DNA from: a virus
Length of the DNA stretch: 64,000 nt
Reading direction: 5' to 3' (one strand)
Virus record (IMG/VR): IMGVR_UViG_3300041409_000348
Span: 39,564 to 103,563 of that record
Below are positions 2,699 through 63,625 of this stretch, one piece after another. Every line of letters starts with the position of its first letter. The stretch's first letter is position 1. The notes under the pieces are model-generated. The model did no database searches. It had not been told where the DNA came from and was given only the letters and a program-made list of their open reading frames with translations. A program made the translations under genes and the position numbers.

Positions 2699-3205
2699 AT
2701 GCCACGCCGCCGCTCCGTCGTCACCCGCGAGAACGACATCCGCGCCATTGACCTGCGCCGGCGCGGCCTCACGTATGAGCAGATCGCCACCCAGATGGGC
2801 TTCCGCGCCACCTCCAGCGCTTATGAAGCCGTCCAGCGGGGCTTGGCCGAGGCGTTCCGTGAGGAAGCCGGCGCGCTCACCCAGATGGAAGCGGAACGCC
2901 TGGACGCCCTGCGGCGCCTGTTCGAGCGGATCGCCGCGACCAAGCATTACGCGGTGTCTCTCGGGTCGGGGAAAGTCATCATGGACCCCGCGAACCCCGG
3001 CCAGCCCCTCACCGACGACGGCCCCGCCATGGCCGCCGGTTTGGCGTTGCTGCGGGTCAGTGAGTCGTGGCGGAAACTCAAGGGCCTCGACGCACCCGCG
3101 AAGTCCCGCGTCGAAGTGGTCACCGCCGACGTGATCGAGTCCGAGATCACGCGCCTGGAGGCAGACCTTGCCGCCAACGACCCCGTACATCCAGGCACCG
3201 GCTGA
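2699..3205 (+). CDS. terminase small subunit (putative)
   Basis: 168 residues; ATG with a strong GGGAGG Shine-Dalgarno near 2683-2688. The N-terminus carries a helix-turn-helix-like segment (LTYEQIATQMGFRATSSAYEAV), followed by long helices (MEAERLDALRRLFERIA), which matches the DNA-recognition plus oligomerisation layout of small terminases. The 3' end overlaps the large subunit start by 38 nt. The role, recognition of the packaging start and feeding DNA to the motor, is inferred mainly from position. Confidence 0.8.
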   Translation: MPRRRSVVTRENDIRAIDLRRRGLTYEQIATQMGFRATSSAYEAVQRGLAEAFREEAGALTQMEAERLDALRRLFERIAATKHYAVSLGSGKVIMDPANPGQPLTDDGPAMAAGLALLRVSESWRKLKGLDAPAKSRVEVVTADVIESEITRLEADLAANDPVHPGTG

Positions 3206-4877
3206 CCGGCTCCGCTACCTGCGTGAGCTTCAGCGGCAGGCGGCGGAGACCAAGAAGGCCGCATCCCAGCGGTACTACAACGACCCGGTAGCGTTCGCCG
3301 CCGACTGCATCGACTGGCGTGACGGCGCTGGCCTGACCGCCTACCAGCAGGAGATCGTCGGGGACCTGCCGGCCCGTAAGCGCATCAGTGTCCGCAGTCC
3401 CCACGGCACCGGGAAATCGACCACGGCTGCCGTGACCATCTTGTGGTTCGCGCTGACCCGCGAAACGGCGGGTGTGGACTGGAAGGTCGCGACGACCGCC
3501 GGGTCCTGGCATCAGCTGTCCAGATTTTTGTGGCCGGAGATTCACCGCTGGGCGGGCCGGATCCGCTGGGACAAGATACGCGGCAACCAGCCGCTGACCG
3601 CCCATGAGGAACTGAACCTCCGCCTGCGCGGTCACCCGTTCAGCGCCGCTGAGCTGATGAACCTGAACCTGCGCCTCAACCACGGTGCGGCCTTCGCGTC
3701 CGCGTCCGCGAACTCGGCCCTCATCGAAGGCGCCCACGCCGACAGTCTGCTGTTCGTGTTCGACGAGTCCAAGGCGATCCCCGCCGCCACGTTCGACGCC
3801 TGTGAAGGTGCCCTGAACGGCACCGGGGAAGCGTTCGCCCTCGCGCTCTCGACGCCGGGTGCGCCCGCCGGCCGGTTCTACGACATTCAGTCCCGCAAAC
3901 CGGGCTATGAGGACTGGCACGCCGTCCACGTCACCCTTGACCAGGCGATAGCGGCCGGGCAGATCGACCCGGACTGGGCAGCGAACCGGGCCCGCCAGTG
4001 GGGCACCGAATCCAGCATCTACGTCAACCGGGTCCTCGGCGAGTTCCACGCCGGCGATGAGGACAGTGTGATCCCGCTGGCGTGGGCTGAGGCCGCGGTC
4101 GAACGCTGGCTCGAATGGGACCTCGCCGGCCGCCCCGGCACCGAGATGGACTATCCCCGCACCGTCGGTGTGGACGTGGCCCGTGAAGGCATGGACAAGA
4201 CGGTCCTCGCGGTCCGCAACGGCCACGTGCTGACCGAACTGCGCCGGTCGGTGAAGGAAACCACCATGCAGACCACTGGCCGTGTCGCCGGTGTCCTCGA
4301 CGCCGACGCGGCCAGGACCGCGGTCGTGGACGTCATCGGTATCGGCGCGGGTGTCGTGGACCGGCTGCGGGAGATGGGCCACAAGGTGCAGGCGTTCAAC
4401 GCCGCCGCCGGAACCGACCGCCGCGACGTCACCGGCGAACTGGGCTTCCCGAACTCCCGCAGCGCCGCATGGTGGTCGATGCGTGAGCAGCTCGACCCGT
4501 CCGCCGGCTCCACCGTGTGCCTGCCTGATGATGAGATGCTGCTCGGTGACCTGGCCGCGCCGCAGTGGAAAGTCCTGTCCGGCGGCAAAATCCAGGTCGA
4601 GCCGAAAGACGAGATCCGCAAACGCCTCGGCCGGTCCACCGACGACGGCGACGCTGTGGTTCAGGCGTTCTTCTCCCGGTCGATGCCGCATTCGCCGTCG
4701 GCGCGGCAGTGGGCTGTCCACGACGAACTTGAGCGGATGGGCCAGGACCCGTCCGCGCGGATGCGTGCCCGTCCCGGCCAGGACTATGACCGGGACGACA
4801 ACTGGTCCGCGGACTCGTTCGCCCCGCAGGCCGACGACGGCAGACCGGAACGGCCCAACGTGAGGGCATGGCGGTAA
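3168..4877 (+). CDS. terL: terminase large subunit
   Basis: 569 residues from TTG 3168 (a later start is possible). It is the ATPase/nuclease that packages DNA into proheads. Walker A is SPHGTGKST at about 77-85 and Walker B LLFVFDES at 194-201. The C-terminal RNase H-like nuclease shows its acidic residues in GVDVAREGMDKT (Asp 336), VVDVIGIGAG (Asp 388) and STDDGDAV (Asp 492-495). Length is normal for a large terminase. The overlap with the small subunit implies translational coupling. Confidence 0.95.
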   Translation: MPPTTPYIQAPADRLRYLRELQRQAAETKKAASQRYYNDPVAFAADCIDWRDGAGLTAYQQEIVGDLPARKRISVRSPHGTGKSTTAAVTILWFALTRETAGVDWKVATTAGSWHQLSRFLWPEIHRWAGRIRWDKIRGNQPLTAHEELNLRLRGHPFSAAELMNLNLRLNHGAAFASASANSALIEGAHADSLLFVFDESKAIPAATFDACEGALNGTGEAFALALSTPGAPAGRFYDIQSRKPGYEDWHAVHVTLDQAIAAGQIDPDWAANRARQWGTESSIYVNRVLGEFHAGDEDSVIPLAWAEAAVERWLEWDLAGRPGTEMDYPRTVGVDVAREGMDKTVLAVRNGHVLTELRRSVKETTMQTTGRVAGVLDADAARTAVVDVIGIGAGVVDRLREMGHKVQAFNAAAGTDRRDVTGELGFPNSRSAAWWSMREQLDPSAGSTVCLPDDEMLLGDLAAPQWKVLSGGKIQVEPKDEIRKRLGRSTDDGDAVVQAFFSRSMPHSPSARQWAVHDELERMGQDPSARMRARPGQDYDRDDNWSADSFAPQADDGRPERPNVRAWR

Positions 4878-6442: not shown

Positions 6443-7985
6443 ATGTCACCCCAAGACCCCCAGAAGGCGCGGATCGTGGCGTTCCCCGACTTGAAGCCGG
6501 CGACACGCCATGACCTTATGCGCGGGGAGCTCGGCACCGAGTTCGACCGCAACCAGATGTTCGGCCTGTACTCGGGTGGTGATGTCTTCTTAGTCCGACT
6601 ACGGCACCGCCACTGCCCGGGACTTCCAGACCATGCTCAGCCGCGACGGCCAGGCCGCGGCGCTCGAGGCGGTCCTGACGCTGCCGATCCGGCAGGCGTC
6701 CCGCGCGATCGAGCCCGGCAAGAACGACAGCGGCGAGGCCGATTTCTGCCACTCGGTGCTGTTCGCGCCGCACACCTCGGGCGGCATGAGCACCCCGATG
6801 CAGGACGTGATCGGGCAGGTCACCTCGGCGCAGATTTTCAAGCTCGCCTTCTTTGAGCTCTGCTGGAAGATCCGGGAGCGGGACGGCGGGGTCGCCATCG
6901 ACAAGATGGCCTACCGGCCGCCGGCGACCTGTGAGCTGAAGCGGGACGCCCGCACGGGCGCGATGGACGGGTTCCGGCAGCAGGTGTGGCAGTTCGGCGG
7001 CAACCTCAAGCAGGACAAGGCATCCAAACTGCCCGGCTACGTCGAGATCCCCAAGATCAAGTCGTATGTCCACGTCAACGGCCGGCACCGGCAGCCCCTC
7101 ACCGGCACCAGTGAGCTTGAGCTGACGCACTGGGTCCACCAGACCAAGCTCAAATTGCTGTACCTCTGGTTCCAGTTCCTGGAGCAGCAGAGCCTGCCGA
7201 AGGTCATCGTGTACGGCCAGGACCAGCGGGAAGCCAACGCGAAGGCCGACGACATCGCCTCGATGCGATCGTCCGGTGTCGTGGGGTTCGCCCGCGACCC
7301 GCAGGGCGCCAAGTCGTTTGAGATCCTGGAGTCCTCGGGCTCGAAGGGTGCCACTCAGTTCGCTGACGCCCTGTCGTTCCTTGAAACGTGGCAGACCGCG
7401 AGCGTCCTGGCCGGGTTCACGGGCCTGTCCTCGCTCGCGGCGATGGGCCGCGGTTCCCTCGCGTTGTCGCAGGACCAGTCGGCGTTCTTCCTGAAGTCCC
7501 GGCAGGCCATCAGCCTGGAGATCGCCGAGTCCATCACCCACGAGGTCATCGCCCCGCTGGTGACCCTGAACTTCGGGCCGGGCGCGAGCTATCCGCGGTT
7601 CACGTTCGGGGCCCTGTCGGATGAGTCCGGCTCCCAGCTGGTCACCTTGTTCCAGGCTCTCGCGGTCGCACCCGCGTTGCAGGTGCCGGCGGGGATCCTG
7701 GACATCATCACGGAACGTCTGGCGACGTTCCTGAACCTGGACGTGGATGCGGTGACGCAGATCGTGCAGCAGGGTGCGAAGGACCGTGAGGCGCAGGCGG
7801 TCGCGCAGGCCCCGGCGGGGATGCCGCAGCAGTCGGCGGCGGCGCTGGGGCATCTGGCGGGGGGAACAGCGGCGGCGGCGGCGATAGCGAAGAAGGCTTT
7901 GGCGCATGCCGGTAACCAGCCACTGCCGGAGGACATCATGCAGCCGTTCGACGTGCCGAACATGAGCGTGAACCCGAAGGCGTGA
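6443..7985 (+). pseudogene. portal protein, reading frame interrupted by a +1 shift
   Basis: The portal forms the DNA gate at the capsid vertex. The N-terminus (from ATG 6443, or GTG 6431) reads MSPQDPQKARIVAFP to GLYSGGDVFL in frame 2. The rest reads SDYGTATARDFQTMLSRDG onward in frame 3 and runs to 7985. The two pieces join around 6590-6600; a TAG at 6591-6593 blocks the second frame upstream. Removing the A of TTAGTCC gives a smooth GGDVFLSDYGTATARD. The body (FELCWKIRERDGG, MAYRPPATCELKRD, QQSLPKVIVYG) resembles Mu gp29/DUF935-type portals and the combined length of about 513 residues is normal. It is either a one-base insertion (real or sequencing) or recoding. Confidence 0.8.
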
Positions 7986-14873: not shown

Positions 14874-15788
14874 GTGCCCACTCCGGCATATTCCAGCCTT
14901 GACGGCCCCCGGGTCACAGTCGACGCCCTGCTCAAGGACCCGCTGGTCATTCCCGCGCTGATCCTCGACATGACCCAGAACGAGTTCATCGTCGACGCCG
15001 TGCTCCGGCAGGGTGGCCTCGCCACCTCCGGCGCCGTCCGCTACTCCGAGTCGACGCCGCTGTACGCCGACGACACCCCGGAGATCCGCGCCGAGTTCGC
15101 TGAGGTGCCGGTCGTGCCGACCAGCGTCGGCGTCCCGCGCGTGGTGTTCACCCACGAGCGCGCCATGGCGATCATGGTGTCCGACGAGATGCGGCGCCGC
15201 CAGGCCATCGACCCGGTGACGCGGCAGCTCACCCAGGTCAAGAACACGATGGTGTACTCCTGGAACCAGGCTTTCTTCTCGGCCGTGGTCGCCAACGCCG
15301 GCATCCAGACGCTGGCCGTGTCGAACCCGTGGGCCTCGAGCAACGCCACCATCCGCGGGGACATCGCCAACGCGGTGTATCTGGTCGAGAACGCTTCGAT
15401 CAGCAGCTCGATCAGCGGCCTGTCTCAGTTCCTCGGCTTCGAGGCAGACACCATGATCATCAACCACGGGACGAAGAACAGCCTGCTCCAGTCGTCCTCG
15501 TTCGCCGCGCCCTACATCGGGGATATTGCGTCGGAGTCGCTCCAGTACACGGGCGTGCTGCCTAATCGCATTTTTAATCTTGATGTAATGGTGAGCCGAC
15601 AGATCCCGGCCGGAAATGCCATTGTCATGCAGCGCAATAGGTGCGGCTTTATCGCCGATGAATTGCCCATGCAGGCTTCCCCGCTCTACAGGGATGAGCC
15701 GCGTAAGACACAGAGGTCGGACGTACAAAGGGCCAGCGCCATTGGGCTTGACCAACCTTTGAGTATCGTGCTGCTCAGCGGGGTATAA
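14874..15788 (+). CDS. major capsid protein (HK97 fold, putative)
   Basis: 304 residues, GTG 14874 after AGGAG. Position after the decoration-like gene, and length, fit an HK97-fold capsid. Supporting segments are LRQGGLATSGAVRYSES, AEVPVVPTSVGVPRVVFTHERAMAIMVSDEMRRR, and RQLTQVKNTMVYSWNQAFF. The last 75 codons (from about 15562) switch abruptly to A/T-ending codons (CCT AAT CGC ATT TTT), unlike the rest of the gene, immediately before an HNH cassette. Confidence 0.85.
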   Translation: MPTPAYSSLDGPRVTVDALLKDPLVIPALILDMTQNEFIVDAVLRQGGLATSGAVRYSESTPLYADDTPEIRAEFAEVPVVPTSVGVPRVVFTHERAMAIMVSDEMRRRQAIDPVTRQLTQVKNTMVYSWNQAFFSAVVANAGIQTLAVSNPWASSNATIRGDIANAVYLVENASISSSISGLSQFLGFEADTMIINHGTKNSLLQSSSFAAPYIGDIASESLQYTGVLPNRIFNLDVMVSRQIPAGNAIVMQRNRCGFIADELPMQASPLYRDEPRKTQRSDVQRASAIGLDQPLSIVLLSGV

Positions 15789-30760: not shown

Positions 30761-33700
30761 ATCACGTTCGACGCCGGCAGCATCTCCGCGAAGCTCGAAC
30801 TCGACCGCTCCAGCTTCAACACCGGGCTGACCCAGGCGCAGGCCGACGCGGACAAGTTCAGCGGCAAGCCCATCCAGGCGAAGATCACCGCTGACGGGAC
30901 GCAGGCCAAGGCGACCCTGGATGACCTGCAGACGCGGGCCGATGCGCTCGGCAAGAAGGCCGGGACCATCACGGTCAAGGCGGACGCATCGCAGGCGGAC
31001 GCGACCCTGGACGCGACGTCGGCGAAAGCGGACGCGCTCGGCAAGAAGGCCGGCACGATCAAGGTCCAGGCCGACGCGAGCCAGGCCAACACCGAGATGG
31101 ACGCCACCGCCGCCAAGGCGGATGCGCTGGGGAAGAAAAACCCCACCATCACGGTCAAGGCCGACACGTCTGGTGCCAGTTCCGACCTGGACAAGGCCGC
31201 CGCGAAGGCCGATGCGCTGGGGAAGAAAACCGAGACGGTCACGGTCAAGGCCGACACGTCCGACGTCAGCCAGAAAATCTCCGATCTCACCTCGGGGCCG
31301 TTCTCGCTGCTGAAAACCGCGATCGTCGGCCTCGGCCCCGCCGCGGTCCCTGTCCTCGGCACGGTCACCGCCGCGGTGCTGCCGCTGTCCGCCGCGGTCG
31401 GGTCCGCTGCGGCCGGGCTCGCCGCGTTCGGGACCGTATCCAAACTGGTCCTCACCCAGGCCGGCACCGCCGCGACCGCGGCGTCCACCGCCCAGGCCAC
31501 TTACACCGCGGCCATCGCCAAAGCCGCCGGGCAGTACACCATCGCCTCCGCCGCCGCGAAAACCCACACCCAGCAGGTCGCCGCGCTCGCCGCCGAGCAC
31601 AAAGCCGACGCGACCGCTGCGGTCGCCCAGGCCGCCGCGCTGAGCACCGCCTACTCGGGTATGAGTTCCCAGCAGATCGCCCTGTCCAAGCAGGTCGGGG
31701 ACCTCGACAAGGCATACAAGGGCATGCTGACCTCGGTCACCCCCCTGGTGTCCTCCGCGCTGGTCCCGTGGATGAAAGACGTCCAGAACCTGCTCCAGTA
31801 CATCAAGCCGCTGATCAGCCCCGTCGCTGCCCTGTTCAAGTCCTGGGGGGACGAGCTCAACCGGTCGCTGACCGGCAACACAGCCAACATCACTAAGTTC
31901 ATGGACGCCTTCGCGGGCCGGTCCGCCACCAACATCCGCCTGTTCGGTGACGCCCTCGTGGAGTTCGCGAAAGGCGCCGGGTCGCTGATCCACGACGTCG
32001 CCCCCAATCTGGCGGGGGCCGCCGACGGGGTGCTGAAACTCGCGCAGTCGTTCGCGGCGTGGGCCGGGTCGCAGAAGGCCGCCGACGACATCAAGGCGTT
32101 TTTCTCGTGGGCGCAGACCAACGCCCCCACGGTCCGCAAATTCCTCGACGACCTGAACACCACCATCGGGCACCTGGTCATCGCGCTGGCGTCCGCCGGG
32201 CCCTCCGATCTGAAGGTGCTCACCGCTGGCCTGTCCGCCCTGGCGGCACTGCCCTCCGGGGCGATCGTCGCCATCGCCGACGGGTACGTGGCCCTGTCCC
32301 TCGGCCTGCGGGCCGCCGCGGTCGCCACGACCCTGTACGAGATCGCCTCCAAGGACGCCGCCGGCTACACGCTGCTGATGCGGATCCAGTTCGGGTTGCT
32401 GCAAGTCCAGGAGAAAGCGGTCGCGTTGTGGACGGGCCTGGTCACGGCGGCCACGTGGCTCGCTGACGCCGCCGAAACCGCCTACGTCGCCGTGATGCTC
32501 CTCGCCGACGCCGCGAGCCTCCCCCTCATCGTCGTGATCGGCGGGATCGTCCTCGCCGTCGCCGCCCTCGCGCTCGGCATCTACGAACTCGCCACCCACT
32601 GGAATACCGTCTGGCATGACATCCTCGCCGTCTCCCAGGACGTGTGGGGCTGGATCAAAAACAACTGGCCGCTGCTCACCGCGATCCTCCTCGGCCCCAT
32701 CGCCGTCGCCGTCCTGGAAATCGTCCAGCACTGGGACACCATCAAGGACGCCTTCTCCGCGGTCTCCGCGTTCATCGCCGCGGACTGGAAAGCGTTCACC
32801 AGTTCCCTCCTCGCCCCCGTCGCCGCGATCGTCCACGGAATCTCGGTCGCCTGGGCCGCGATCGAGGCCCCGTTCGAGGCTGTCATCGACTGGATCAAAA
32901 CCCACTGGCAGGACACCCTCGTCCTCCTGACCGGGCTCCTCGGCGTCGCGATCCTGGTCATCATCCACTTCTGGCCGCAGATCACCACCGCCGTCGAAAC
33001 GGTCTTCAACGGCATCGCGTCCTATTTCACGACGTGGTGGGCGACGGCAACCAGCCGGTTCACCGCCGCGGCGAACATCCTCAAAGGCGTCCTGACCGCC
33101 GCGTGGTCAGCGATCTCCACCGCCCTCAAGGCCGCCTGGGCGGCGATAGCCGCCTACTTCACGTCGTGGTGGAACGCCGAGGTCGCCTACTTCAAAGGCC
33201 CCATCACCGCCATCGAGAACGCCCTCAAGGCGGCGTGGTCGGCGATCACCAGCGTCGCGAAGACGGCGTGGGGTGCGATCTCGTCGTATTTCTCGTCGTG
33301 GTGGAACAGCGAGCTCAGCACGTTCAAGAACGACGCCGCCGCAATCGGAAATGCGCTAAAGGCAGCCTGGGACGCGATCGAATCCACCGCCAAATCGGTG
33401 TTCGGCGGGATCCTGACCTACTTCGGCGGCTTCTGGTCCGCCCTCAAAACCGGGTTCGCGACCGCCGTGTCCGGGGTGGCCACCGCCTGGAACAAGCTCG
33501 AGACGATCGTGAAGACCCCCGTCCAGTGGGTCGTCACCAACGTCTACGACAAGCTGATCATGCCGTTCTGGAACGCCACCGCCGGCGCGATCGGCCTCAC
33601 GAAACTCCCCAAGCTCGCCGGCGGCGGCATGGTCCCCGGCGGGTACAGCCCCGTCGACAACCAGCTCGTGTGGATGCGGTCCGGTGAAGGGGTCCTGCAG

Positions 33701-35080
33701 CCCGGTGCGGTGATGGCCCTCGGCGGGCCTGCGTTCATCGACGCCGCGAACCGCACCTACGGGGATGTCCCGGTCGGGTCCAGCGGCGCCGGCCATTACG
33801 CCTCCGGGGGGACCGCGCCGGGGAACGTGGGCCAGGGACTCCACACCGGCACCACCGCGGAGCCGTCAGGGAGCGCCCCAGCCGGTCTCGGGAGTATCGG
33901 CGGCATCCTCAGCGGCCTCGTCCACGACGCCGCCGGGGTCATCTCCGAGGTTGAGACCGGGGTCTTCGATGCCCTGTCCAGTGTCGGCACCAGGCTCATC
34001 GACGGTGCCGTGAAACTGATCCCCGGTAGCGGCGGTGTGGCCACGGCCATGCGGGACTACCCGCCGAAGATCTGGTCGGCGTTCCTGTCCTGGGTCACCG
34101 CCCACGCTGGGAACGGCGGGGATATCGTCAAGTACGCCGAAAGCTTCCTCGGGAAAATCCCCTACGTGTGGGGCGGCACCTCCCTGTCAAGCGCCGGCGC
34201 GGACTGCAGTGGCTTCACCGGCAGTGTGCTATCCCACTTCGGATACGACCCGCCGCGCACGTCGGAGGCGCAGGGCTCGTGGGTTAAACGGGCCGGCCCG
34301 CAAGCGGGCGGGCTCGCGTTCTACCACTCCCCGGCGGGTGGCGCCGACCCGGGCCACGTCGCGATCGTCGCCAGCGGGAGCCAGGTGGTCTCCCAGGGCG
34401 GCGGGATGGGCCCGAAGATGATGGCCCTGCACGCGATGCCGCTGCTGTGGACCGGTATCCCGCCGGGCGGGTTCAAGTCCGGCAGCGGCGGCGGGAGCAC
34501 CGCCATGGCGGGCGGCGGCAGCGCCAGCGCCAACCAGGCCCTCGGCCAGAGAATGGCCGCAGCGATGGGCTGGACCGGCGCGGAATGGGCCGCTCTGAAC
34601 GCCGTGGAAATGCGGGAGGCGGGCTGGTCGACCACCGCCAGGAACGCGAGTTCCGGCGCGTACGGGATCGCCCAGTTCATTTCGGGGCCGTCCGAGTATG
34701 CCCAGTACGGGGGCAGCAGCACGACGGCGGGCGGGCAGATCGCCGGGTTCCTGAACTACGTGAAAGAGCGCTACGGCGACCCCATCGCCGCCGAGGCTCA
34801 TGAGGCGCAGTACGGGTGGTATGACCAGGGCGGATGGCTGCAGCCCGGCATGACAATGGTCATGAACGCCACCGGGCACCCGGAACCGGTCCTCAACCCG
34901 GACCAGTGGGACCGGCTCACCTCCGCGGTCGGGTCCGGTGACGGGATCGGGGACAAGCTCGACCGGATCGCCGGGCTGCTCATGGCCGGGCCCCGCGCCA
35001 CCGCCGGTGGTGTGTCCGAGGTTCTGAACGGGACAGCGCACACGGCGTCATTCAGGGCCCGGTACCCGCGCAACAACTAG
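30761..35080 (+). CDS. tape measure protein with NlpC/P60 and SLT-like domains
   Basis: The frame opens after TGA 30752-30754 and runs 1,439 codons. No standard start precedes residue 1 (ATC 30761); GTG 30751 is one base out of frame, so a one-base G insertion in AGCGGCC is suspected (expected VSAITFDAGSI). Residues about 45-175 hold repeats of KADALGKK plus TITVKAD. Middle: membrane-like helices and repeated SWWN/AYF segments. C-terminal NlpC/P60: IPYVWGG, ADCSGF (Cys), PGHVAIV (His). Then an SLT-like domain: WAALNAVEMREAGW, SGAYGIAQF. It sets tail length and probably cuts peptidoglycan during entry. Confidence 0.9.
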   Translation: MTFDAGSISAKLELDRSSFNTGLTQAQADADKFSGKPIQAKITADGTQAKATLDDLQTRADALGKKAGTITVKADASQADATLDATSAKADALGKKAGTIKVQADASQANTEMDATAAKADALGKKNPTITVKADTSGASSDLDKAAAKADALGKKTETVTVKADTSDVSQKISDLTSGPFSLLKTAIVGLGPAAVPVLGTVTAAVLPLSAAVGSAAAGLAAFGTVSKLVLTQAGTAATAASTAQATYTAAIAKAAGQYTIASAAAKTHTQQVAALAAEHKADATAAVAQAAALSTAYSGMSSQQIALSKQVGDLDKAYKGMLTSVTPLVSSALVPWMKDVQNLLQYIKPLISPVAALFKSWGDELNRSLTGNTANITKFMDAFAGRSATNIRLFGDALVEFAKGAGSLIHDVAPNLAGAADGVLKLAQSFAAWAGSQKAADDIKAFFSWAQTNAPTVRKFLDDLNTTIGHLVIALASAGPSDLKVLTAGLSALAALPSGAIVAIADGYVALSLGLRAAAVATTLYEIASKDAAGYTLLMRIQFGLLQVQEKAVALWTGLVTAATWLADAAETAYVAVMLLADAASLPLIVVIGGIVLAVAALALGIYELATHWNTVWHDILAVSQDVWGWIKNNWPLLTAILLGPIAVAVLEIVQHWDTIKDAFSAVSAFIAADWKAFTSSLLAPVAAIVHGISVAWAAIEAPFEAVIDWIKTHWQDTLVLLTGLLGVAILVIIHFWPQITTAVETVFNGIASYFTTWWATATSRFTAAANILKGVLTAAWSAISTALKAAWAAIAAYFTSWWNAEVAYFKGPITAIENALKAAWSAITSVAKTAWGAISSYFSSWWNSELSTFKNDAAAIGNALKAAWDAIESTAKSVFGGILTYFGGFWSALKTGFATAVSGVATAWNKLETIVKTPVQWVVTNVYDKLIMPFWNATAGAIGLTKLPKLAGGGMVPGGYSPVDNQLVWMRSGEGVLQPGAVMALGGPAFIDAANRTYGDVPVGSSGAGHYASGGTAPGNVGQGLHTGTTAEPSGSAPAGLGSIGGILSGLVHDAAGVISEVETGVFDALSSVGTRLIDGAVKLIPGSGGVATAMRDYPPKIWSAFLSWVTAHAGNGGDIVKYAESFLGKIPYVWGGTSLSSAGADCSGFTGSVLSHFGYDPPRTSEAQGSWVKRAGPQAGGLAFYHSPAGGADPGHVAIVASGSQVVSQGGGMGPKMMALHAMPLLWTGIPPGGFKSGSGGGSTAMAGGGSASANQALGQRMAAAMGWTGAEWAALNAVEMREAGWSTTARNASSGAYGIAQFISGPSEYAQYGGSSTTAGGQIAGFLNYVKERYGDPIAAEAHEAQYGWYDQGGWLQPGMTMVMNATGHPEPVLNPDQWDRLTSAVGSGDGIGDKLDRIAGLLMAGPRATAGGVSEVLNGTAHTASFRARYPRNN

Positions 35081-39524: not shown

Positions 39525-39608
39525 TAGCCGGACCAGCTTCCGGTTAGGGCCTCCGGTCACGGTGTTGACGCACCGCGGGGGCCCGATGAATGTCTGGCCT
39601 CCATTCTA
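39525..39608 (-). promoter_or_regulatory. leader of the antisense HNH cassette: TAGAAT plus hairpin
   Basis: TAGAATGGAGG on the minus strand (39598-39608), followed by a stem-loop at 39559-39574 (CGGTG/CACCG). Shares 11 bases with the leader at 15831. Confidence 0.55.
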
Positions 39609-47484: not shown

Positions 47485-47595
47485 ATGCACTGGTGCTGGA
47501 ACTGCGGTCGTTACGGGCCGCCATCGCGTGTCAAAGGCTGGTGCCAGTCCTGCCTAAAAGCATGGCGGCCCGCCGTCAAGGAGGCCATCCGATGA
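47485..47595 (+). CDS. 36-residue zinc-ribbon peptide
   Basis: MHWCWNCGRYGPPSRVKGW then CQSCLKAW: two CxxC pairs. ATG after GGGGA; its TGA overlaps the lysin ATG, so it may couple lysin translation. Confidence 0.45.
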   Translation: MHWCWNCGRYGPPSRVKGWCQSCLKAWRPAVKEAIR

Positions 47596-48629
47596 CCGCG
47601 AGCGCGCAAGGCATCGACGTCTCGTCGTATCAGCCTGACCAGACTGCCAGCGGACTGGGGAAATACAGCTTCGCGTTCTGCAAGGTCAGCGAGGGCCTGG
47701 CCGGCACCGACCCGCACCTGCCCGCGAACTGGGCCGCGATCAAGGCGGCAGGCATCCACCGCGGCGGGTATCACGAGTTCCACCCGTCCGGAGACCCCGC
47801 CGCGCAGGCCCGCCACTTCGTCGCCGCCGCGAAAACTCAGGGCCTCGTGCCCGGCGACATGCTCGCGGTCGTGGCCAGCGACTACGCGGGTGTCACCTCG
47901 GCGATGATCCGCACCTGCTGCGATGAGGTCGCCGCACTGGCGGGCCCGCACTGCCCGGTGCTGGTCTACAGCGACCTGTCCGTGGCACGCGGTCTCACCA
48001 CCTGCACGAAGTATCCGCTGTGGATCGCCAATCCGGCCAGCAGCGCCCCGCAGGATGTGTCCCCGTGGCCGCGGTGGATGTTCTGGCAGTGGTCGTGGAC
48101 CCCGGAAGACCAGGACGCATTCAACGGGACCGCGGCCAGCCTGAGCGCGTGGATCGCCGGCTACACGGGCGGGAACACGCCCGCCGCACCCGCCGCCACT
48201 GTCGCGGGCTGGCTTGCGCAGGGCCAGAAGTCCCTCGCCGACCTGTGCTCCGGGTCGCTGCACAACGGCGTGTCCACGGTGCTCCGCCTCACCGCCGAAC
48301 GCAGCCCGGGTGCCGTCTACGCCCCCGCGCTGGCGACGTACCTCAACGGGGTGTTCGCCGCCGACAAGGCCGTGATCCCGGCCGGGGTGGTGCTGTTCTA
48401 TCCCAAGGGCAGCGGAGACGAGGCGTTCACGTCCCGCGGCGATCAGACGCTGCAGGGGCTGGCGAACACGTGGCACTGCGAGTGCTCCGCGATCGTCCGG
48501 CTCACCGCCGAGAAGTCGCCGGGGTCGGTTTTCTCCGGCGCCATGGCCACCTACCTGGATGGGGTTTTCCAGCGTGCGGCCAGCGGGCCGAAAGTCCCGG
48601 TCGGCGTCCACCTGTACTACGAAACGTGA
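47592..48629 (+). CDS. endolysin, GH25 muramidase with C-terminal repeats
   Basis: 345 residues from ATG 47592. GH25 fold: QGIDVSSYQ, YSFAFCKVSEG, GIHRGGYHEFHP, VLVYSDLSVARG, PLWIANP, FWQWSW, covering about 1-200. Two C-terminal repeats follow (SLHNGVSTVLRLTAERSPGA; CECSAIVRLTAEKSPGS), probably cell-wall binding. It cleaves the N-acetylmuramyl bond of peptidoglycan at lysis. Confidence 0.9.
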   Translation: MTASAQGIDVSSYQPDQTASGLGKYSFAFCKVSEGLAGTDPHLPANWAAIKAAGIHRGGYHEFHPSGDPAAQARHFVAAAKTQGLVPGDMLAVVASDYAGVTSAMIRTCCDEVAALAGPHCPVLVYSDLSVARGLTTCTKYPLWIANPASSAPQDVSPWPRWMFWQWSWTPEDQDAFNGTAASLSAWIAGYTGGNTPAAPAATVAGWLAQGQKSLADLCSGSLHNGVSTVLRLTAERSPGAVYAPALATYLNGVFAADKAVIPAGVVLFYPKGSGDEAFTSRGDQTLQGLANTWHCECSAIVRLTAEKSPGSVFSGAMATYLDGVFQRAASGPKVPVGVHLYYET

Positions 48630-49445: not shown

Positions 49446-49460
49446 CCCGAGCAACACAGA

Positions 49461-49502
49461 AGCCGCCGCCCTTTCCCTTCGGGGGGAGGGCGGCGGCTTT
49501 TT
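49461..49502 (+). terminator. strong rho-independent terminator
   Basis: Perfect 12-bp stem AGCCGCCGCCCT / AGGGCGGCGGCT with a 14-nt loop and T-tract. Ends the late structural and lysis operon and separates it from the accessory region. Confidence 0.9.
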
Positions 49503-49520: not shown

Positions 49521-49805
49521 TTATCTTGCGGCCCCGGCCTGGATGCGGCTGAGGAACGCGCCCCACCCCTCCGGAGTGACCTCCAGAACCGGGCCGGGAT
49601 CCTTGCTGTCACGGACCCCGACGACACCGGCACCGTTCCCGGCCTCCACGCACTGCCCGTTAGCGACGCTGTGGGTGGCTTTGCGCCAGTCCGCTACCTC
49701 CACGCACGCACCCTGGCTGTTGCTGCGGGTGCTCTTGCGCCAGGCCGCCACCTCGACGCACTGGCCGCTGGCGGTGCTTCGGGTGCTCTTACGCCATGAG
49801 TTCAT
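49521..49805 (-). CDS. DUF397 protein with triplicated N-terminal motif
   Basis: 94 residues. WRKSTRSxxxGxCVEVA is repeated three times (about 4-20, 22-38, 40-54), the third followed by VGVRDSKDPGPVLEVTPEGWGAF. DUF397 proteins normally have one such unit, accompany XRE regulators, and act in actinobacterial developmental regulation. TACGGT lies 9 nt upstream of the ATG. Its presence beside phage morons suggests host-regulatory interference. Confidence 0.85.
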   Translation of the reverse strand: MNSWRKSTRSTASGQCVEVAAWRKSTRSNSQGACVEVADWRKATHSVANGQCVEAGNGAGVVGVRDSKDPGPVLEVTPEGWGAFLSRIQAGAAR

Positions 49806-49940: not shown

Positions 49941-50089
49941 CCGTCGAAGACGTGGTTCGGGTTGGCGTGGAGTCCCGCAGCCGCAGCGACCGGGGCCGCC
50001 GAGGAAACCGCCGTCGCGACGGACACGCCAGCGACGCTGCCTGCCGCCGCGAGCGACAGAGCGACCGCCGCGATTCGCCTCTTGATCAT
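49937..50089 (-). CDS. small secreted peptide (signal peptide)
   Basis: 50 residues from ATG 50089 with GGGAGGA upstream. MIKRRIAAVALSLAAAGSV then AAPVAAAAGLHANPNHVFDG: basic N-region, hydrophobic core, Ala-rich cleavage area. The mature peptide would be only about 15-20 residues unless fused to the next ORF. Confidence 0.6.
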   Translation of the reverse strand: MIKRRIAAVALSLAAAGSVAGVSVATAVSSAAPVAAAAGLHANPNHVFDG

Positions 50090-50293
50090 GATTCCTCCCG
50101 GATGGGTGAAACTTTGGCCATTTGACGGGATTATGGCACACATGGCAGGCATGGCCTAGACCCCCGGGGAGGGTGTGTGGTGTCACCGTCCAGGCGGAAT
50201 GTTCCCGGTTCCGTATCCGGGTCGTTGCTCGCAGTGCTTAGGCTCGGCTGGTGGACATGCCCGGACCCCGGGCCCTCAAAGCGGAGGTATGTG

Positions 50294-51562
50294 ATGCGGT
50301 GGCGGCCGATCTCGTGGAAGTCAGCAGTACACCTCGACCGGCGCCCGGCACGGACATCCCTGATAGGGCCACCCGCGGCCTGCCCCGTGGATCCGCCGGC
50401 TTTACTGCCACCGCATCTGCCGGAGCCGGTGGTGCTCCGGGACAGCCTCGCCGGGATGAACGGCGGCGCGCAGAAGGTCGCCGGGGACTTCTACGCCACC
50501 CTGTTCCGGTACCACCCGGAACTGCGGGACATGTTCCCCGCGATGATGAACAACCAGAACGAGCGCCTGTTCGGGGCGCTGCTGAACATCGTCAAACTGC
50601 TGGACGCACCGGACCAGCTCGCCCGGTACCTGAGCCAGCTCGGCGCCGACCACCTGAAGTACGGGGTCCGGCCCGAGCATTACGCCCCGGTCGGGCAGTC
50701 GCTCCTGGCCGCGCTGCGGCACAACTGCCCCGCCCTGGACGAGCGGGCCGAGGCGGGCTGGCTGGCTGCCTACACGTTCGCGGCGGGGGCGATGATGGCG
50801 GGCGCGGAAACGCACCGCGGTCCGGCGGTCTGGCACGGGCGGGTGATCCGGCATGAACGCCGGTCCCGGGACCTGGCGGTCCTCGAGGTGGAGACGAACG
50901 AGCCGCTGCCGTATCTCGCGGGCCAGTTCGTGACTGTGCAGACCGCGAAGTGGCAGCGGGTGTGGCGGCCGTTCTCGATCGCGAACGCCCCCGCGCAGGA
51001 CGGCAGCAGGATCACCCTGCATGTGCGGTCCATCCCCGGCGGGTGGGTGTCCACCGCACTGGTCCGCGACACCAGGGACGGCGATGAGCTGATCATCGGC
51101 CCGGCGACGGGCACCATGACCAGCGATCAGGTCAGCGACCGGGACCTGCTGTGCGTCGCCGGCGGTACGGGCCTGGCACCGGTCAAGGCTGTCGTGGAGG
51201 ACGTGCTGCGCGGCGACGAGGCAGCGGTGGCGGGCGGGTACGGGATGCGCCGCAACATTCACCTGTTCCACGGGGCGAAAACCCCGCTGGAGCTGTACGA
51301 CATGCCCGCCCTGCATGAACTGGCCCACGCCTACCCGTGGCTGCGGGTCATCCCCGTCGTATCGGACGATCCGGCCTTCTCGGGCCGTCAGGGGTATGTT
51401 TCGGACGCTGCCCTCGGTTACGCTGACTGGTCGGACGCGGAGGCGTTCGTCGCAGGCCCAGCCAGCATGGTGGGCCTGACCGCTGACGGCTTGTGCAAAG
51501 CGGGCATGGCAGCCAGCCAGGTCCACCGCGACGACCTCGAGGTGACCAAGGCAGTTGCTTAG
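50294..51562 (+). CDS. flavohaemoglobin (globin-FAD-NAD domains)
   Basis: 422 residues from ATG 50294 (GCGGAGG upstream; longer in-frame starts exist). Globin at about 45-170: DFYATLF (Tyr 67, B10), NNQNERLF (Gln 88), ADHLKYGVRPEHY (proximal His 120). FAD domain: RPFSIANAP at 225-233. NAD domain: GGTGLAPVKA at 290-299 and FVAGPASMV near 394. This is the order of NO dioxygenases, which turn NO into nitrate with NAD(P)H and O2. The 3' end overlaps the NO synthase gene by 8 nt, so it may detoxify, tune, or supply electrons for the NO made by its partner. Confidence 0.9.
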   Translation: MRWRPISWKSAVHLDRRPARTSLIGPPAACPVDPPALLPPHLPEPVVLRDSLAGMNGGAQKVAGDFYATLFRYHPELRDMFPAMMNNQNERLFGALLNIVKLLDAPDQLARYLSQLGADHLKYGVRPEHYAPVGQSLLAALRHNCPALDERAEAGWLAAYTFAAGAMMAGAETHRGPAVWHGRVIRHERRSRDLAVLEVETNEPLPYLAGQFVTVQTAKWQRVWRPFSIANAPAQDGSRITLHVRSIPGGWVSTALVRDTRDGDELIIGPATGTMTSDQVSDRDLLCVAGGTGLAPVKAVVEDVLRGDEAAVAGGYGMRRNIHLFHGAKTPLELYDMPALHELAHAYPWLRVIPVVSDDPAFSGRQGYVSDAALGYADWSDAEAFVAGPASMVGLTADGLCKAGMAASQVHRDDLEVTKAVA

Positions 51563-52685
51563 CTTCCGGCGCAGAACCCCCGAGCCCACGGGGATACCGG
51601 CCGTGGACATGGCCGAAGCCGAGGACTTCATCCGCGGGTTCCACTCCGCCACCCCCGGCGCCGGTGACACGGGCCGGCGGGTCCGCGAGGCCAGGGAGTC
51701 CATCGCCGCCACCGGGACCTACACCCACACCCTGCCGGAGCTGACGTACGCGGCCCGGGTCGCGTGGAGGCACGCCGGCCGGTGCGTGGGCCGGGACAAG
51801 TGGCGGTCGCTGCGGCTCCGGGACAAGCGGGACGTGTCCGCCCCCGCCAGCGTCGCCGCCGAGGTCATCGGGCATCTGCGGGAAGCCACCAACGGGGGAC
51901 GGATCCGCTCCACCATCACCGTATTCGCGCCGGACACACCACACCGCCGCGGCCCCCGCATCCTCAACAGCCAGGCCATCCGCTACGCCGGCTACCAGCA
52001 GCCGGACGGCGTGCTCGGCGACCCCGCGAACCAGCAGCTCACCACACTGGCGCTGCGGCTCGGCTGGGAGCCGGGCAAGAGCCAGTTCGACATTCTGCCG
52101 CTGATCATCCAGGGACCGGACGGGGGCCTGTCAGCCTGGACGATCCCCGGCGACGCGGTGCTGGAGGTGCCGATCAGCCACCCCGGCTACCCGTGGTTCA
52201 CCGAACTGGGGCTGCGCTGGTATGCGCTGCCGGTGATCTGCGACATGTACCTCGACGCGGGCGGCATCCGCTACCCGTGCTCACCGTTCTCCGGCTGGTA
52301 CATGGCCTCCACCGAGGTCGGCGTGCGGGACCTGGGGGACGTGGACCGCTACAACGTCCTCCCTGATGTAGCCAAAGGGATGGGCCTGGACACGGCCCGG
52401 CTGGACACGTTCTGGAAGGACCGGGCGGCGGTCGAGCTGGCCGACGCGGTTCACCGCAGCTACCGGGCGGCCGGGGTGATGGTCACCGACCATCAGACCG
52501 AGGCGGCCCGGTTCGCCAGGTGGGCGACGGCCGAGGAGAAAGCCGGCTGCCCGGTGTACGCGGAGTGGGCGTGGATGGTCCCGCCGATCAGCGGCAGCAC
52601 GACCCCTGTTTTTCACCGGGCCTATCCGGATCGGGTGATCAAGCCGGGATACTTCCGGCACGAGGATCCGTTCCCCAGCCGGTGA
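51555..52685 (+). CDS. nos: nitric oxide synthase oxygenase
   Basis: 376 residues from TTG 51555 (GTG 51603 is an alternative). Haem thiolate loop WRHAGRCVGR (Cys 77). ILNSQAIRYAGYQQPDG, FDILPLIIQ, ELGLRWYALPVICDM, and GWYMASTEVGVRD with the arginine-binding Glu 254. DRYNVLPDVAKGMG, TDHQTEA and WAWMVPPISGSTTPVFH complete the family core. This region has one more residue (ASTE) than the usual GWYMGTE, and DHQ replaces DHH. No reductase domain, as in bacterial NOS; the adjacent flavohaemoglobin could serve. It makes NO and citrulline from arginine. Confidence 0.92.
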   Translation: MLSFRRRTPEPTGIPAVDMAEAEDFIRGFHSATPGAGDTGRRVREARESIAATGTYTHTLPELTYAARVAWRHAGRCVGRDKWRSLRLRDKRDVSAPASVAAEVIGHLREATNGGRIRSTITVFAPDTPHRRGPRILNSQAIRYAGYQQPDGVLGDPANQQLTTLALRLGWEPGKSQFDILPLIIQGPDGGLSAWTIPGDAVLEVPISHPGYPWFTELGLRWYALPVICDMYLDAGGIRYPCSPFSGWYMASTEVGVRDLGDVDRYNVLPDVAKGMGLDTARLDTFWKDRAAVELADAVHRSYRAAGVMVTDHQTEAARFARWATAEEKAGCPVYAEWAWMVPPISGSTTPVFHRAYPDRVIKPGYFRHEDPFPSR

Positions 52686-52704: not shown

Positions 52705-52750
52705 ACGGTCAATGTCATGGCCTGTGACATTCGTCAACGTCGCTGGTCAC
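52705..52750. repeat. repeat A: ATGTCA...TGACAT element with TTGACA
   Basis: Read on the minus strand, CAGGCCATGACATTG is followed by GTTGACACG. A similar block (CAGGCATGACATTG ... TTTGACACGG) occurs at about 52990-53025. The two flank the gene at 52734-52991, suggesting duplicated control sequence. Confidence 0.4.
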
Positions 52751-52991
52751 GAGCCTGGGCTTTCGCCCAGGCCGCGCGGAATTCGGGGTCGTTTTTGAGG
52801 CTCTCTTCGATGAATTGGTCCAGGTCGTCAGGACCGTCCGGCAGCACGTCCCGAATGTCTTTCCACGCAGCGTTCATGTCGTCGGCCACGGTGACGTCCG
52901 GGGGTAGCGGTGGCTTGAGCGAGCCAGTGAAGTCCATCAGGTGAGCCATGCCCCGAAAGAACGCCCGAGCCTGCTGTCTGAAGGTAAGCAC
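52734..52991 (-). CDS. small antisense hypothetical protein
   Basis: 85 residues from GTG 52991 (GGGAG upstream); ATG 52949 is an alternative. DDMNAAWKDIRDVLPDGPDDLDQFIEESLKNDPEFRAAWAKAQ is helical and acidic. Last gene of a six-gene antisense run. Its stop is near that of the NOS gene. Confidence 0.6.
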   Translation of the reverse strand: MLTFRQQARAFFRGMAHLMDFTGSLKPPLPPDVTVADDMNAAWKDIRDVLPDGPDDLDQFIEESLKNDPEFRAAWAKAQARDQRR

Positions 52992-56372: not shown

Positions 56373-56999
56373 TCAGTCCAGCCGGTAACGCCACGAGCGG
56401 GAATCGGGGAACCCGAGCAGGCGCGCGGTCCCGGCCCGCTCCGCCCGCCGCTGCCCCACGATGATCACAGCCACGAAAAAGTCAGCGACCGCCAGGTACA
56501 GCGGATACAGGACACCCGTGACCGTGATCTCCGCCGCAGCCAGCGTCAGCGTCGCCCCGGCCCCGAACAGCAGGTACACGAACCACGGCTCCTCCCGCGG
56601 CTCATCCCACGCATGCCGGATCGTCGGCAGATACGCCGCCAGGTCAGCGGCAGCAGCCACGATGACGGTCGCGGCGGGGGAGCGCACCACCATGAGCAGC
56701 ACCAGGCCGGCGGTCACCGCGGTCAGGCTCAGCACGTCCAGCCATGTCACCGTCCAGTCCCCGCGCCGCAGCGACAGCACCGTCACCGTCCCGCACGCCG
56801 CCGCGCAGATCCCCGTATAGAGGGCGCTCGGGTACTGGCCGGTGACGAACGACGCGAACGTGACCTCGGCCAGCAGCGCCGCCCACGCCCCCCACGAGAC
56901 CACCTCAGGGCGGGCGGTACCCCGCAGGGTGCACACCACGTACATGACCGAGGCGACCAGGGTCAGCAGGTCCCCGGCGCCGACCTCCGCCCAGCTCAC
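56373..56999 (-). CDS. polytopic membrane protein, PQ-loop-like
   Basis: 208 residues with about seven hydrophobic helices. ADLAAYLPTIRHAWDEPREEPWFVYLLFG has the Pro-bearing helix and following acidic loop of PQ-loop (SWEET/semiSWEET-type) proteins. Start overlaps the upstream gene. Could be host-derived; substrate unknown. Confidence 0.6.
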   Translation of the reverse strand: MSWAEVGAGDLLTLVASVMYVVCTLRGTARPEVVSWGAWAALLAEVTFASFVTGQYPSALYTGICAAACGTVTVLSLRRGDWTVTWLDVLSLTAVTAGLVLLMVVRSPAATVIVAAAADLAAYLPTIRHAWDEPREEPWFVYLLFGAGATLTLAAAEITVTGVLYPLYLAVADFFVAVIIVGQRRAERAGTARLLGFPDSRSWRYRLD

Positions 57000-57969: not shown

Positions 57970-58227
57970 ATGGGTCAGCTAACCGATCAGAACAACGAGC
58001 CAGTGACCGATGCAGACCGGGAAGCGGCTGCGCGGCGCGCGGCGGACACCGACCTGGATCACTACATCGTCGTCCCGGCTAGCCCGTGGGGTGGGCAGCG
58101 GGCAACGTTCGGGCCAATGACCGAAGGTGCGGCCCGCGCCAAGCTGGACAAGTTCATGCCCCTGTACATGCCTGAGTGCCCGCCGAAGCTGCTGCGCCTC
58201 GTAGAGGACTACGAGGACGGCCAATGA
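57970..58227 (+). CDS. small hypothetical protein before the integrase
   Basis: 85 residues with GAAGGA upstream. TDLDHYIVVPASPWGGQRATFGPMTEGAARAKLDKFMP; alpha/beta, acidic. Overlaps the integrase start by 4 nt, so could be an excisionase-type accessory or antirepressor; no HTH seen. Confidence 0.6.
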   Translation: MGQLTDQNNEPVTDADREAAARRAADTDLDHYIVVPASPWGGQRATFGPMTEGAARAKLDKFMPLYMPECPPKLLRLVEDYEDGQ

Positions 58228-59189
58228 CCGACCTCGCGGCGACCACGCCGCTCGACGGCCGGATCATCACCCCGCAGATGGAACTCACCGCCCGGCTCAC
58301 TGCCGAGTGGTACGGGACTCTCGGCGAAGGCAACACCGCCGCCGCCTACGCGAACGACCTGAACCTGTGGCGCACCTGGTGCGAGGCGAACAGCATCGAC
58401 CCGCTCACCGCACGCAAGACCGACACCGGAAAATGGATCCGCGACCAGCAGGCCCGCGGATTCGCCAAACGGACCATCGCACGCCGCGTCTCAGCGGTCT
58501 CCGCCTGGTATGAGTTCCTCCACGAGGAAACCGCCAACTCCCCTGTCGTTCTGGCCGCCGAGAACCCGGCACACACCCGGAAACGCCCAAAGGTCGCTAG
58601 GGACGACTCACCGACGCTCGGCCTGAGCAAAGCCCACGCCCGTCAGCTCATCCTCGCGGCCGACGCCGACAGCCTCCGCAGCGGTGCGCTGATGCGCTTC
58701 CTGCTCGGCAACGGCCTGCGGGTCGGGACCGTCGTCAGCGCCCGCATCGAGGACATCGCCGAAGACGACGGGCATCATGTGATCTTCCTGCGCGGCAAGG
58801 GCGACGTCCGCCGCAAGGCACCCATCCCCCCGCCCGGCTACAACGCGATCACGAAGATGCTCGCCGAACGCGGCCACCCTGCGGAGGGCCCGCTATTCGC
58901 TACCTCGACCGGGCGGCCGGTCGACCGCCATTACATCTTCCGTCTCGTCCGCCGCCTATCCGTCCGGGCAGAGATCCCGTCCGCAGCGCACCTGTCCCCC
59001 CATTCGCTGCGTCACTCGTTCGCCACCGAAGCGCTCAAGCGCGGCGTGTCCCTGCACCAGCTCCAGGACGACATGTGGCACGCCGACTCACGGACGACCG
59101 AGATTTACAACCGGGCCCGGAACCGGCTCGACAAGAGCGCCGCCTATGTGGTGGCCGGCGAGTTCGAGCCGGTGACTGATGACGAGTGA
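58224..59189 (+). CDS. int: tyrosine recombinase (integrase)
   Basis: 321 residues from ATG 58224. N-terminal core-binding SAM-like domain (NTAAAYANDLNLWRTWC; FAKRTIARRVSAVSAWYEFL). Catalytic set: Arg 166 (GNGLRVGTV), Lys in LRGKGDVRRK, His 260 and Arg 263 (PHSLRHSFAT), His 286 (MWHADSRTT), Tyr 295. It integrates or excises the phage at att sites. MWHA replaces the more usual LGHA. Length normal for a small XerD-like phage integrase. attP not identifiable by eye. Confidence 0.93.
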   Translation: MTDLAATTPLDGRIITPQMELTARLTAEWYGTLGEGNTAAAYANDLNLWRTWCEANSIDPLTARKTDTGKWIRDQQARGFAKRTIARRVSAVSAWYEFLHEETANSPVVLAAENPAHTRKRPKVARDDSPTLGLSKAHARQLILAADADSLRSGALMRFLLGNGLRVGTVVSARIEDIAEDDGHHVIFLRGKGDVRRKAPIPPPGYNAITKMLAERGHPAEGPLFATSTGRPVDRHYIFRLVRRLSVRAEIPSAAHLSPHSLRHSFATEALKRGVSLHQLQDDMWHADSRTTEIYNRARNRLDKSAAYVVAGEFEPVTDDE

Positions 59190-59616
59190 GCCGCACGATT
59201 TCAGCCCGGCGTGCTGGTCCTGGCCGCCACCGACGGACGCCGACCGGGAGCGTGTCCGCACGCTGTACAAGTCAGCTATCGACCAGCTCGGGGACGGCAT
59301 ACTGCCCGCCCTGGTGATGTCCGACTGGCAGCAGGAACGCTGCGCGGTATGCGGCGGGCAGGGTGCCCCCGTGGAGGACCACGACCACGGCACTGGCCTT
59401 GTCCGTGGCTACCTCTGCCGCGGCTGCAACGTGGCCGAGGGGATGAACCGTTACGCCGGGCGCGTGTGGCGGGAGTACCGGGAACGCAACCCCGCGTCCA
59501 TCTGCGGCGTGGTCGAGCGGTACTGGGATCCGCTCACGAAGGAGTTCGCCGAGCCAGCCGAGCCGCTCTCGGCTGACCGCTGGAAGAACCACCCGATGCG
59601 CGGCGTCGGCCTGTGA
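59179..59616 (+). CDS. recombination endonuclease VII
   Basis: 145 residues, ATG overlapping the integrase end. CAVCGGQGAPVEDHDHGTGLVRGYLCRGCNVAEG is the diagnostic His-Me/zinc motif of T4 gp49-like Holliday-junction resolvases. It resolves branched DNA before packaging. Its placement with the integrase is unusual but seen in actinophages. Confidence 0.9.
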   Translation: MTSEPHDFSPACWSWPPPTDADRERVRTLYKSAIDQLGDGILPALVMSDWQQERCAVCGGQGAPVEDHDHGTGLVRGYLCRGCNVAEGMNRYAGRVWREYRERNPASICGVVERYWDPLTKEFAEPAEPLSADRWKNHPMRGVGL

Positions 59617-63357: not shown

Positions 63358-63363
63358 TAGCGT
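63358..63363 (+). promoter_or_regulatory. possible leaderless -10 box (TAGCGT) of the GntR gene
   Basis: TAGCGT, 7 nt, ATG 63371. No Shine-Dalgarno is present. Confidence 0.45.
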
Positions 63364-63370
63364 GTGCGGC

Positions 63371-63625
63371 ATGAACCGGCTGACCGTCGACCCGCACGGC
63401 ACCGAACCGAGTTACCGGCAGCTCGCCGGGCAACTGCGGGAACGGATCACGTCCGGGCAGATACCGCCCCGCGGCCCGCTCCCGTCGATCACGGAACTGG
63501 CGGAAGAGACCGGGCTCGCGCGGGGCACCGTCAGGAAAGCGCTTAGTGTCCTCGCGGACGAGGGGCTGATCTACGCCATCCCCGGTCGCGGCACCTTTGC
63601 CGGGCCGCGCGGTGGTGGAAGCTAG
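63371..63625 (+). CDS. GntR-family winged-helix mini-regulator
   Basis: 84 residues from ATG 63371. SYRQLAGQLRERITSGQIPP, SITELAEETGLARGTVRKALSVLADEGLIYAIPGRGTF: a complete GntR wHTH with no effector domain. Short GntR proteins of this kind are common in actinobacterial phages and integrative elements (KorSA-like), where they control transfer or excision genes. Confidence 0.85.
   Translation: MNRLTVDPHGTEPSYRQLAGQLRERITSGQIPPRGPLPSITELAEETGLARGTVRKALSVLADEGLIYAIPGRGTFAGPRGGGS

Follow-up and report, generated by a model that had tools for sequence, protein, structure and literature searches.

Nitric oxide synthase (NOS), a P450-like thiolate-haem enzyme, is found in animals, bacteria, archaea and cyanobacteria. 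Its stand-alone bacterial forms, such as those of B. subtilis, Nonomuraea and Streptomyces, consist of a full oxygenase that carries the haem cysteine and the substrate glutamate but no fused reductase, and stand-alone prokaryotic enzymes require an auxiliary reductase partner (PMC12922734). The syNOS of Synechococcus PCC 7335 is a single chain that joins a globin to a NOS oxygenase and an FAD/NAD(P)H reductase, and its globin oxidises NO to nitrate (PMC12922734, PMC6104048). The flavohaemoglobins of the Hmp/FHP type combine a globin with FAD and NAD domains and display Tyr B10, Gln E7 and His F8, and genes of the flavohaemoglobin (FHb) family adjoin NOS, on the same strand, in Embleya replicons and on a Micromonospora plasmid. 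Phage auxiliary metabolic genes, or morons, are metabolic genes that form isolated units and vary between related phages; we know of no described phage example whose products make or handle NO.

Here, we describe a two-gene cassette, encoding an FHb-type protein and a NOS oxygenase, in a stretch of 64,000 nucleotides (the window; coordinates without a prefix refer to it) that spans positions 39564–103563 of the linear IMG/VR record IMGVR_UViG_3300041409_000348 (G000; 103,563 bases). Like the stand-alone bacterial enzymes, the phage NOS is a full oxygenase without a fused reductase, but it is at most 56% identical to the stand-alone actinobacterial proteins, belongs to a clade of its own, contains an insertion and is preceded by an overlapping FHb gene. 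The cassette provides the same globin, FAD/NAD(P)H reductase and NOS oxygenase as syNOS, yet divides them between two proteins, has no flavodoxin/FMN module and resides in an actinophage rather than on a cyanobacterial chromosome. FHb shares its domain architecture and the three globin residues named above with Hmp/FHP, but has alanine at the position of the proximal glutamate, a far lower score against the Hmp family and a reductase half that is nearest to P450 and oxygenase reductases. The Embleya and Micromonospora proteins are 36–41% (FHb) and 46–52% (NOS) identical to those of the phage and fall outside the phage clade, and in Micromonospora, as in genome G250, NOS comes first. What distinguishes the cassette from other auxiliary metabolic genes is its relation to NO; it lies inside a phage genome and occurs, with phage-specific evolution, in more than one phage (four cassettes and the phage G042).

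The literature, PHROGs and viral structure library searched yielded no phage genome with NOS: no PHROGs family matches NOS, none of the BFVD viral structures has a NOS fold, and the one mention encountered was a virome annotation, an eLife article (PMC4164917) citing oxygen-minimum-zone virome reads annotated as 'components of nitric oxide synthase'. An initial sequence-only reading had named no established phage precedent for the pair. Within the literature searched the lack of precedent stood, but the locus is not single, as four contigs share the cassette and a fifth carries an independent NOS.

The FHb and NOS genes

The FHb gene (50294..51562, plus strand) encodes 422 residues arranged in one chain as a Pro-rich N-terminus followed by globin, FAD-binding and NAD-binding domains, and its Pfam matches to Globin, FAD_binding_6 and NAD_binding_1 (E-values of 2.8e-12, 1e-08 and 6.5e-13, respectively) all lie above the cut-offs. 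By eye, an SD sequence, GGAGG (50283–50287), precedes the ATG start at 50294 by 6 nt. The globin keeps Tyr B10, Gln E7, His F8 and the Tyr after the His, whereas the proximal Glu of Hmp is replaced by Ala, as it is in the actinobacterial relatives inspected. Against the Hmp equivalog model NF009805, the protein scores 102.8 bits, below the NCBIfam cut-off of 432, and the P450 reductase 5ogx matches it best in the PDB; a Pfam search placed no flavodoxin domain in either member of the pair. The partner of NOS had been taken for a flavohaemoglobin, which holds for the globin–FAD–NAD architecture and not for membership of the canonical family: judged by these features, the predicted protein is not a canonical Hmp, nor is it an Hmp equivalog.

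The NOS gene (51555..52685, plus strand) encodes an oxygenase of 376 residues from a TTG start that overlaps the FHb stop by 8 bp; GTG (51603) and ATG (51606) codons are in-frame alternatives. In the HMM search that had been proposed as a check, the protein matched PF02898 with 439 bits (E-value 1.6e-131; cut-off 22.7) over profile positions 7–360 of 362. Together with the FHb domains, this confirms the proposal that two overlapping genes at 50294–52685 encode a complete NOS and a globin–FAD–NAD flavohaemoglobin. The residues singled out in the same proposal, the haem ligand Cys77 and the substrate Glu254, do not vary in any of three alignments (8, 4 and 32 NOS sequences), and the WMVPPISGS core is present. 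An AlphaFold model of the protein (pTM 0.86) matched human eNOS (4e-43, TMq 0.88) and B. subtilis NOS 6xk6 (TMt 0.91) in Foldseek comparisons.

Immediately before the catalytic Glu254, the protein contains a one-residue insertion, reading GWYMASTE against the usual GWYMGTE (A251-S252-T253-E254, codons 52305..52316, plus strand). A GWY-x-x-T-E spacing is typical of cellular NOS, though not defining for the Pfam family, and the G000 protein does not have it. The insertion, as GWY(M/Q)ASTE, is present in all four cassette-phage NOS and in 0 of 96 other NOS (95 cellular sequences and an S. aureus contig filed as phage; three of the 96 had no match to the search motif). The same four proteins read DMYL(D/E)AGG where the consensus has NMxLEIGG. 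Placed beside the substrate Glu, the insertion could alter, impair or abolish normal NOS chemistry, and both changes would suit a decayed or retargeted enzyme in which the insertion blocks normal NO synthesis and the pair performs another oxidative reaction. This we consider improbable: all four cassette phages retain the haem Cys, the substrate Glu, Gln140 and Trp338/340, and the fold is predicted with good confidence.

Genomic setting of the cassette

The 103.6-kb record is that of a tailed actinophage. On the plus strand of the window are encoded the terminase large subunit (3168..4877; phrog_2, 2e-30), the portal protein (6633..7985; phrog_113, 3.6e-29), the major capsid protein (14874..15788; phrog_1650, 4.9e-71) and the tail tape-measure protein (31097..35080; phrog_4197, 1272 and others). 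Among the best 80 of 175 IMG/VR loci, relatives of the major capsid protein are 78–95% identical, on contigs of up to 131 kb. A GC content of about 69% and a WhiB-like protein (Wbl; G000:28086-28451, outside the window; PF02467, 7.8e-23), of which homologues are present in G001, G002, G012, G016, G019 and G020, point to an actinomycete as the host. A search with the major capsid protein in 396 Actinomycetota genomes returned weak matches only (at most 31% identity), and thus no close prophage and no named host. Elsewhere in the record, one protein (1380–2648) matches ParB-like PHROGs in its N-terminal and DNA methyltransferase PHROGs in its C-terminal part, a tail-region protein of 918 residues (42496–45252) contains many degenerate repeats of the 'TGTATSASxTTGALAW' type, and G000:32636-34726 encodes a complete DNA translocase of the FtsK/SpoIIIE type, in which FtsK alpha and gamma domains are both present.

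Upstream of the cassette, the lysis operon includes a GH25 endolysin (47592..48629, plus strand; PF01183, 7e-21; phrog_291 endolysin) and ends in a strong intrinsic terminator (49459..49500, plus strand; a 19-bp stem and 4-nt loop, −41 kcal/mol, then TTTTT). This hairpin, missed by a consensus scanner, is the strong terminator that had been noticed after the lysis cassette at the outset. The nearest genes on either side of the FHb–NOS pair occupy the minus strand (a DUF397 protein and small ORFs upstream; 52734–52991 downstream), which makes the pair an isolated bicistronic unit and leads us to expect a promoter of its own. The expected site is the intergenic region 50086..50293 (plus strand), which also holds the SD sequence; a scan upstream of the cassette for sigma-70 consensus promoters found none. 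The DUF397 protein (49521..49805, minus strand; PF04149, 2.7e-30) contains three copies of the domain, and DUF397 proteins occur upstream of the cassette in both G000 and the phage contig G043, possibly by coincidence.

Downstream lie a tyrosine integrase (58224..59189, plus strand; PF00589, 4.5e-25), with an orthologue at the same map position in G012, a recombination endonuclease VII (59179..59616, plus strand; PF02945, 8.5e-11; phrog_423) and, at the right end of the record, a GntR-type winged-helix regulator (63362..63625, plus strand; PF00392, 1.1e-16). The pair had been placed between the lysis cassette and a phage repressor and integrase; the endolysin and integrase agree with this, whereas no clear CI-type repressor was noticed, and the GntR-type winged helix lies beyond the integrase. 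Beside the integrase, the minus strand at 56373–57478 encodes a multi-helix membrane-like protein and a GNAT-fold acetyltransferase, neither with a PHROG match. PADLOC assigned the cassette to no defence family. A nitration cluster of the TxtD type was considered and tentatively set aside, no P450 having turned up among those neighbours that were searched.

That NOS is best known from chromosomes and was found in none of the 39 other capsid-family records tested speaks for the pair being chromosomal host DNA, introduced by assembly chimerism or as a host flank beyond an att site. Two circularly permuted relatives bear on this point. In G001 (110 kb), the circular order runs from the structural module through DUF397 (89.1 kb) and GntR (102.9 kb) to the positions at 1.8, 7.1, 7.9, 18.9 and 22.3 kb before returning to the structural module, and in G012 (128 kb) the 3.1-kb gene comes after the integrase (97.8 kb) and endonuclease VII (98.7 kb). 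The integrase and the right-end GntR gene of G000 thus map beside its left-end genes, the two ends of the record lie side by side on the phage map, and the NOS pair, lying to the left of the integrase, has phage DNA on both sides. In addition, the codon usage of both cassette genes is typical of G000 (z = +0.5 and +0.6), as is their GC3, orthologous cassettes are present in three further phages, and the G000 NOS is nearer to the other phage NOS (60–67% identity) than to any cellular NOS found (at most 56%). The cassette is therefore inside the phage genome, not in flanking host DNA. The chimera or host-flank reading was discarded on the circular gene order and is, in our estimation, extremely improbable, and the att/chimera test set in advance came out in favour of the original view of the pair as phage cargo. 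Closer chromosomal donors of the cassette genes may exist.

Occurrence in other phages and in cellular genomes

Alignment-based scans revealed NOS in four further IMG/VR phage contigs; single-sequence scans of viral and genome contigs returned nothing, alignments being needed, and the viral counts are lower bounds. Three of the contigs (G040, G041 and G043) share with G000 the arrangement of FHb then NOS on one strand, with the genes overlapping by 8 bp in G000 and by 4 bp in G040 and G043, abutting in G041, and with the starts of the homologues in correspondence. Among these cassette phages NOS is 60–67% and FHb 55–61% identical, against best cellular identities of 56% and 49%, respectively. 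The virion modules differ between G000 and the three other cassette phages: G040 (165 kb) encodes a tail sheath, portal and primase, G041 (125 kb) a portal and head protease, and G043 (36 kb), a relative of G041, capsid E. Capsid, portal and terminase are 60–71% identical between G041 and G043, with the cassette at different places, abutting tail genes in the former and beside the terminase/head end in the latter. Phages seem to trade a machine that makes and handles nitric oxide.

Phylogenies of both genes, suggested in the sequence-only reading, recovered the four cassette phages as one clade each time. The four NOS (100/100) stand next to two uncultured-actinobacterium NOS (98/88), in a tree that leaves out L276 and a few long branches, and the four FHb likewise form a single clade (100/100). 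The fifth phage, G042 (IMGVR_UViG_3300027857_000012; 134 kb, 43% GC; terminase, portal and tape measure), encodes at G042:120985-122738 a NOS and, 14 bp downstream, a single-domain globin that has an extra N-terminal region and no reductase. Its NOS lacks the insertion and groups outside the cassette clade, which implies two or more recruitments of NOS by phages. G012 (IMGVR_UViG_3300036784_000120), related to G000 by its capsid, contains an independent FHb in its head module (G012:49023-50126) and no NOS.

Two INPHARED matches were rejected. The NOS of OR845001, filed as a Staphylococcus phage, is S. aureus chromosome, at least at this locus, where the nos neighbours (named from reading the ORFs) are prephenate dehydratase, NAD synthetase and nicotinate phosphoribosyltransferase; the other, a 1.5-kb record with a name and host similar to those of OR845001, is not a credible phage gene.

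The pair had originally been interpreted as a trait of the lysogen. As lysogenic conversion cargo, it would help the lysogen, through oxidative-stress or antibiotic tolerance or in development, and stay silent in lytic growth, for which the G000 integrase and the isolation of the unit between opposite-strand genes both speak. However, no tyrosine or serine recombinase was detected in G040 or G041 (125–165 kb; contigs possibly incomplete), and the positions of the cassette beside virion genes in G041 and G043 also fit poorly with such a role. The missing recombinases make a lysogen-restricted function less likely, if weakly so given the possible incompleteness of both contigs; we find lysogenic cargo quite unlikely, and in terms of gene content the cassette is apparently not tied to lysogeny.

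In cellular genomes, the two genes also keep company. NOS is present in 8, the FHb type in 16 and both in 5 of 396 Actinomycetota genomes (P = 2.9e-6, ignoring relatedness); in one of the 396 the two are adjacent, in the order NOS then FHb. Two Embleya replicons (FHb first) and the Micromonospora plasmid (NOS first) have the genes next to each other; among the 80 best actinobacterial NOS loci, several of them on short contigs, FHb lies within 6 kb of NOS at only two, both times on the opposite strand. Among the loci examined, the FHb-first overlap occurs only in phages. Co-occurrence and adjacency in cells suggest that a functional link between FHb and NOS predates the phages, and on these counts the co-occurrence is a putative functional link that extends beyond adjacency.

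Discussion

Our preferred reading, to which we assign a probability of roughly 0.45, is that the locus is a mobile, phage-borne two-gene redox cassette in which FHb would both donate electrons to NOS and remove NO. NOS would oxidise arginine to citrulline and NO; the co-translated FHb would, through its FAD/NAD(P)H module, feed NOS the electrons that a stand-alone oxygenase lacks, while its globin would clear NO as nitrate by NO dioxygenation. Expressed during infection, the cassette would in this way determine how much NO an infected or lysogenic actinomycete contains, and the benefit could come from effects of NO on respiration, on the defence against oxidative stress or on NO-sensing Fe–S regulators, e.g. 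Wbl, one of which G000 encodes. By analogy, the pair most likely acts like a split Synechococcus NOS. The electron-donor role is suggested by the match between FHb and a P450 reductase, NOS itself being P450-like. As to the regulators, the [4Fe–4S] cluster of WhiB1 is described as very NO-sensitive (PMC3390391), and actinomycete development and stress responses are thought to involve NO-sensing Wbl proteins (PMC4255298).

Several observations count against this explanation. With Ala in place of the Hmp proximal Glu, the predicted NO dioxygenase activity may differ; many actinobacteria hold FHb and NOS apart, so adjacency is not required; and the G042 NOS is paired with a reductase-less globin, while the Wbl motif was not detected in G040, G041 or G043. 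Part of this evidence would suit a cassette in which FHb is an NO sink (an NO dioxygenase) alone, protecting cell and phage, with host flavodoxin/ferredoxin reductases supplying NOS: the G042 partner has no reductase, chromosomal NOS is often without a reductase neighbour, and the G000 globin keeps Tyr B10, Gln E7, His F8 and the next Tyr. The Ala substitution weighs on this alternative too, and the FHb–NOS overlap fixed in the phages and the genome-wide co-occurrence suit a dedicated partner equally well; we regard a sink-only role as unlikely.

A second alternative concerns nitrogen and arginine metabolism, with the pair converting arginine to citrulline and nitrate in the manner of syNOS and feeding the infected cell rather than signalling. 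syNOS, which carries a globin, enables E. coli to grow on arginine as sole nitrogen source (PMC6104048). Among the neighbours searched, however, none was recognised as a nitrate or citrulline gene, and the yield per arginine in one infection would presumably be small, which leaves a nutritional role decidedly improbable.

Beyond the redox cassette that we favor, a broader proposition is possible but doubtful: that a NOS subfamily confined to phages, its active site remodelled and its partner a dedicated haemoglobin–reductase, circulates in unrelated large actinophages, some of them probably strictly lytic, and serves during infection to produce and meter NO, or a related oxidant, that would reprogram the host, for example via WhiB-type Fe–S regulators, respiration or competitor exclusion.

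NOS and a globin-reductase are now present in complete-looking phage genomes of several phage lineages. Their fixed pairing offers a testable answer to the question of which protein reduces stand-alone bacterial NOS, and phages may, by this means, control a molecule that is both gaseous signal and toxin in soil actinomycetes.
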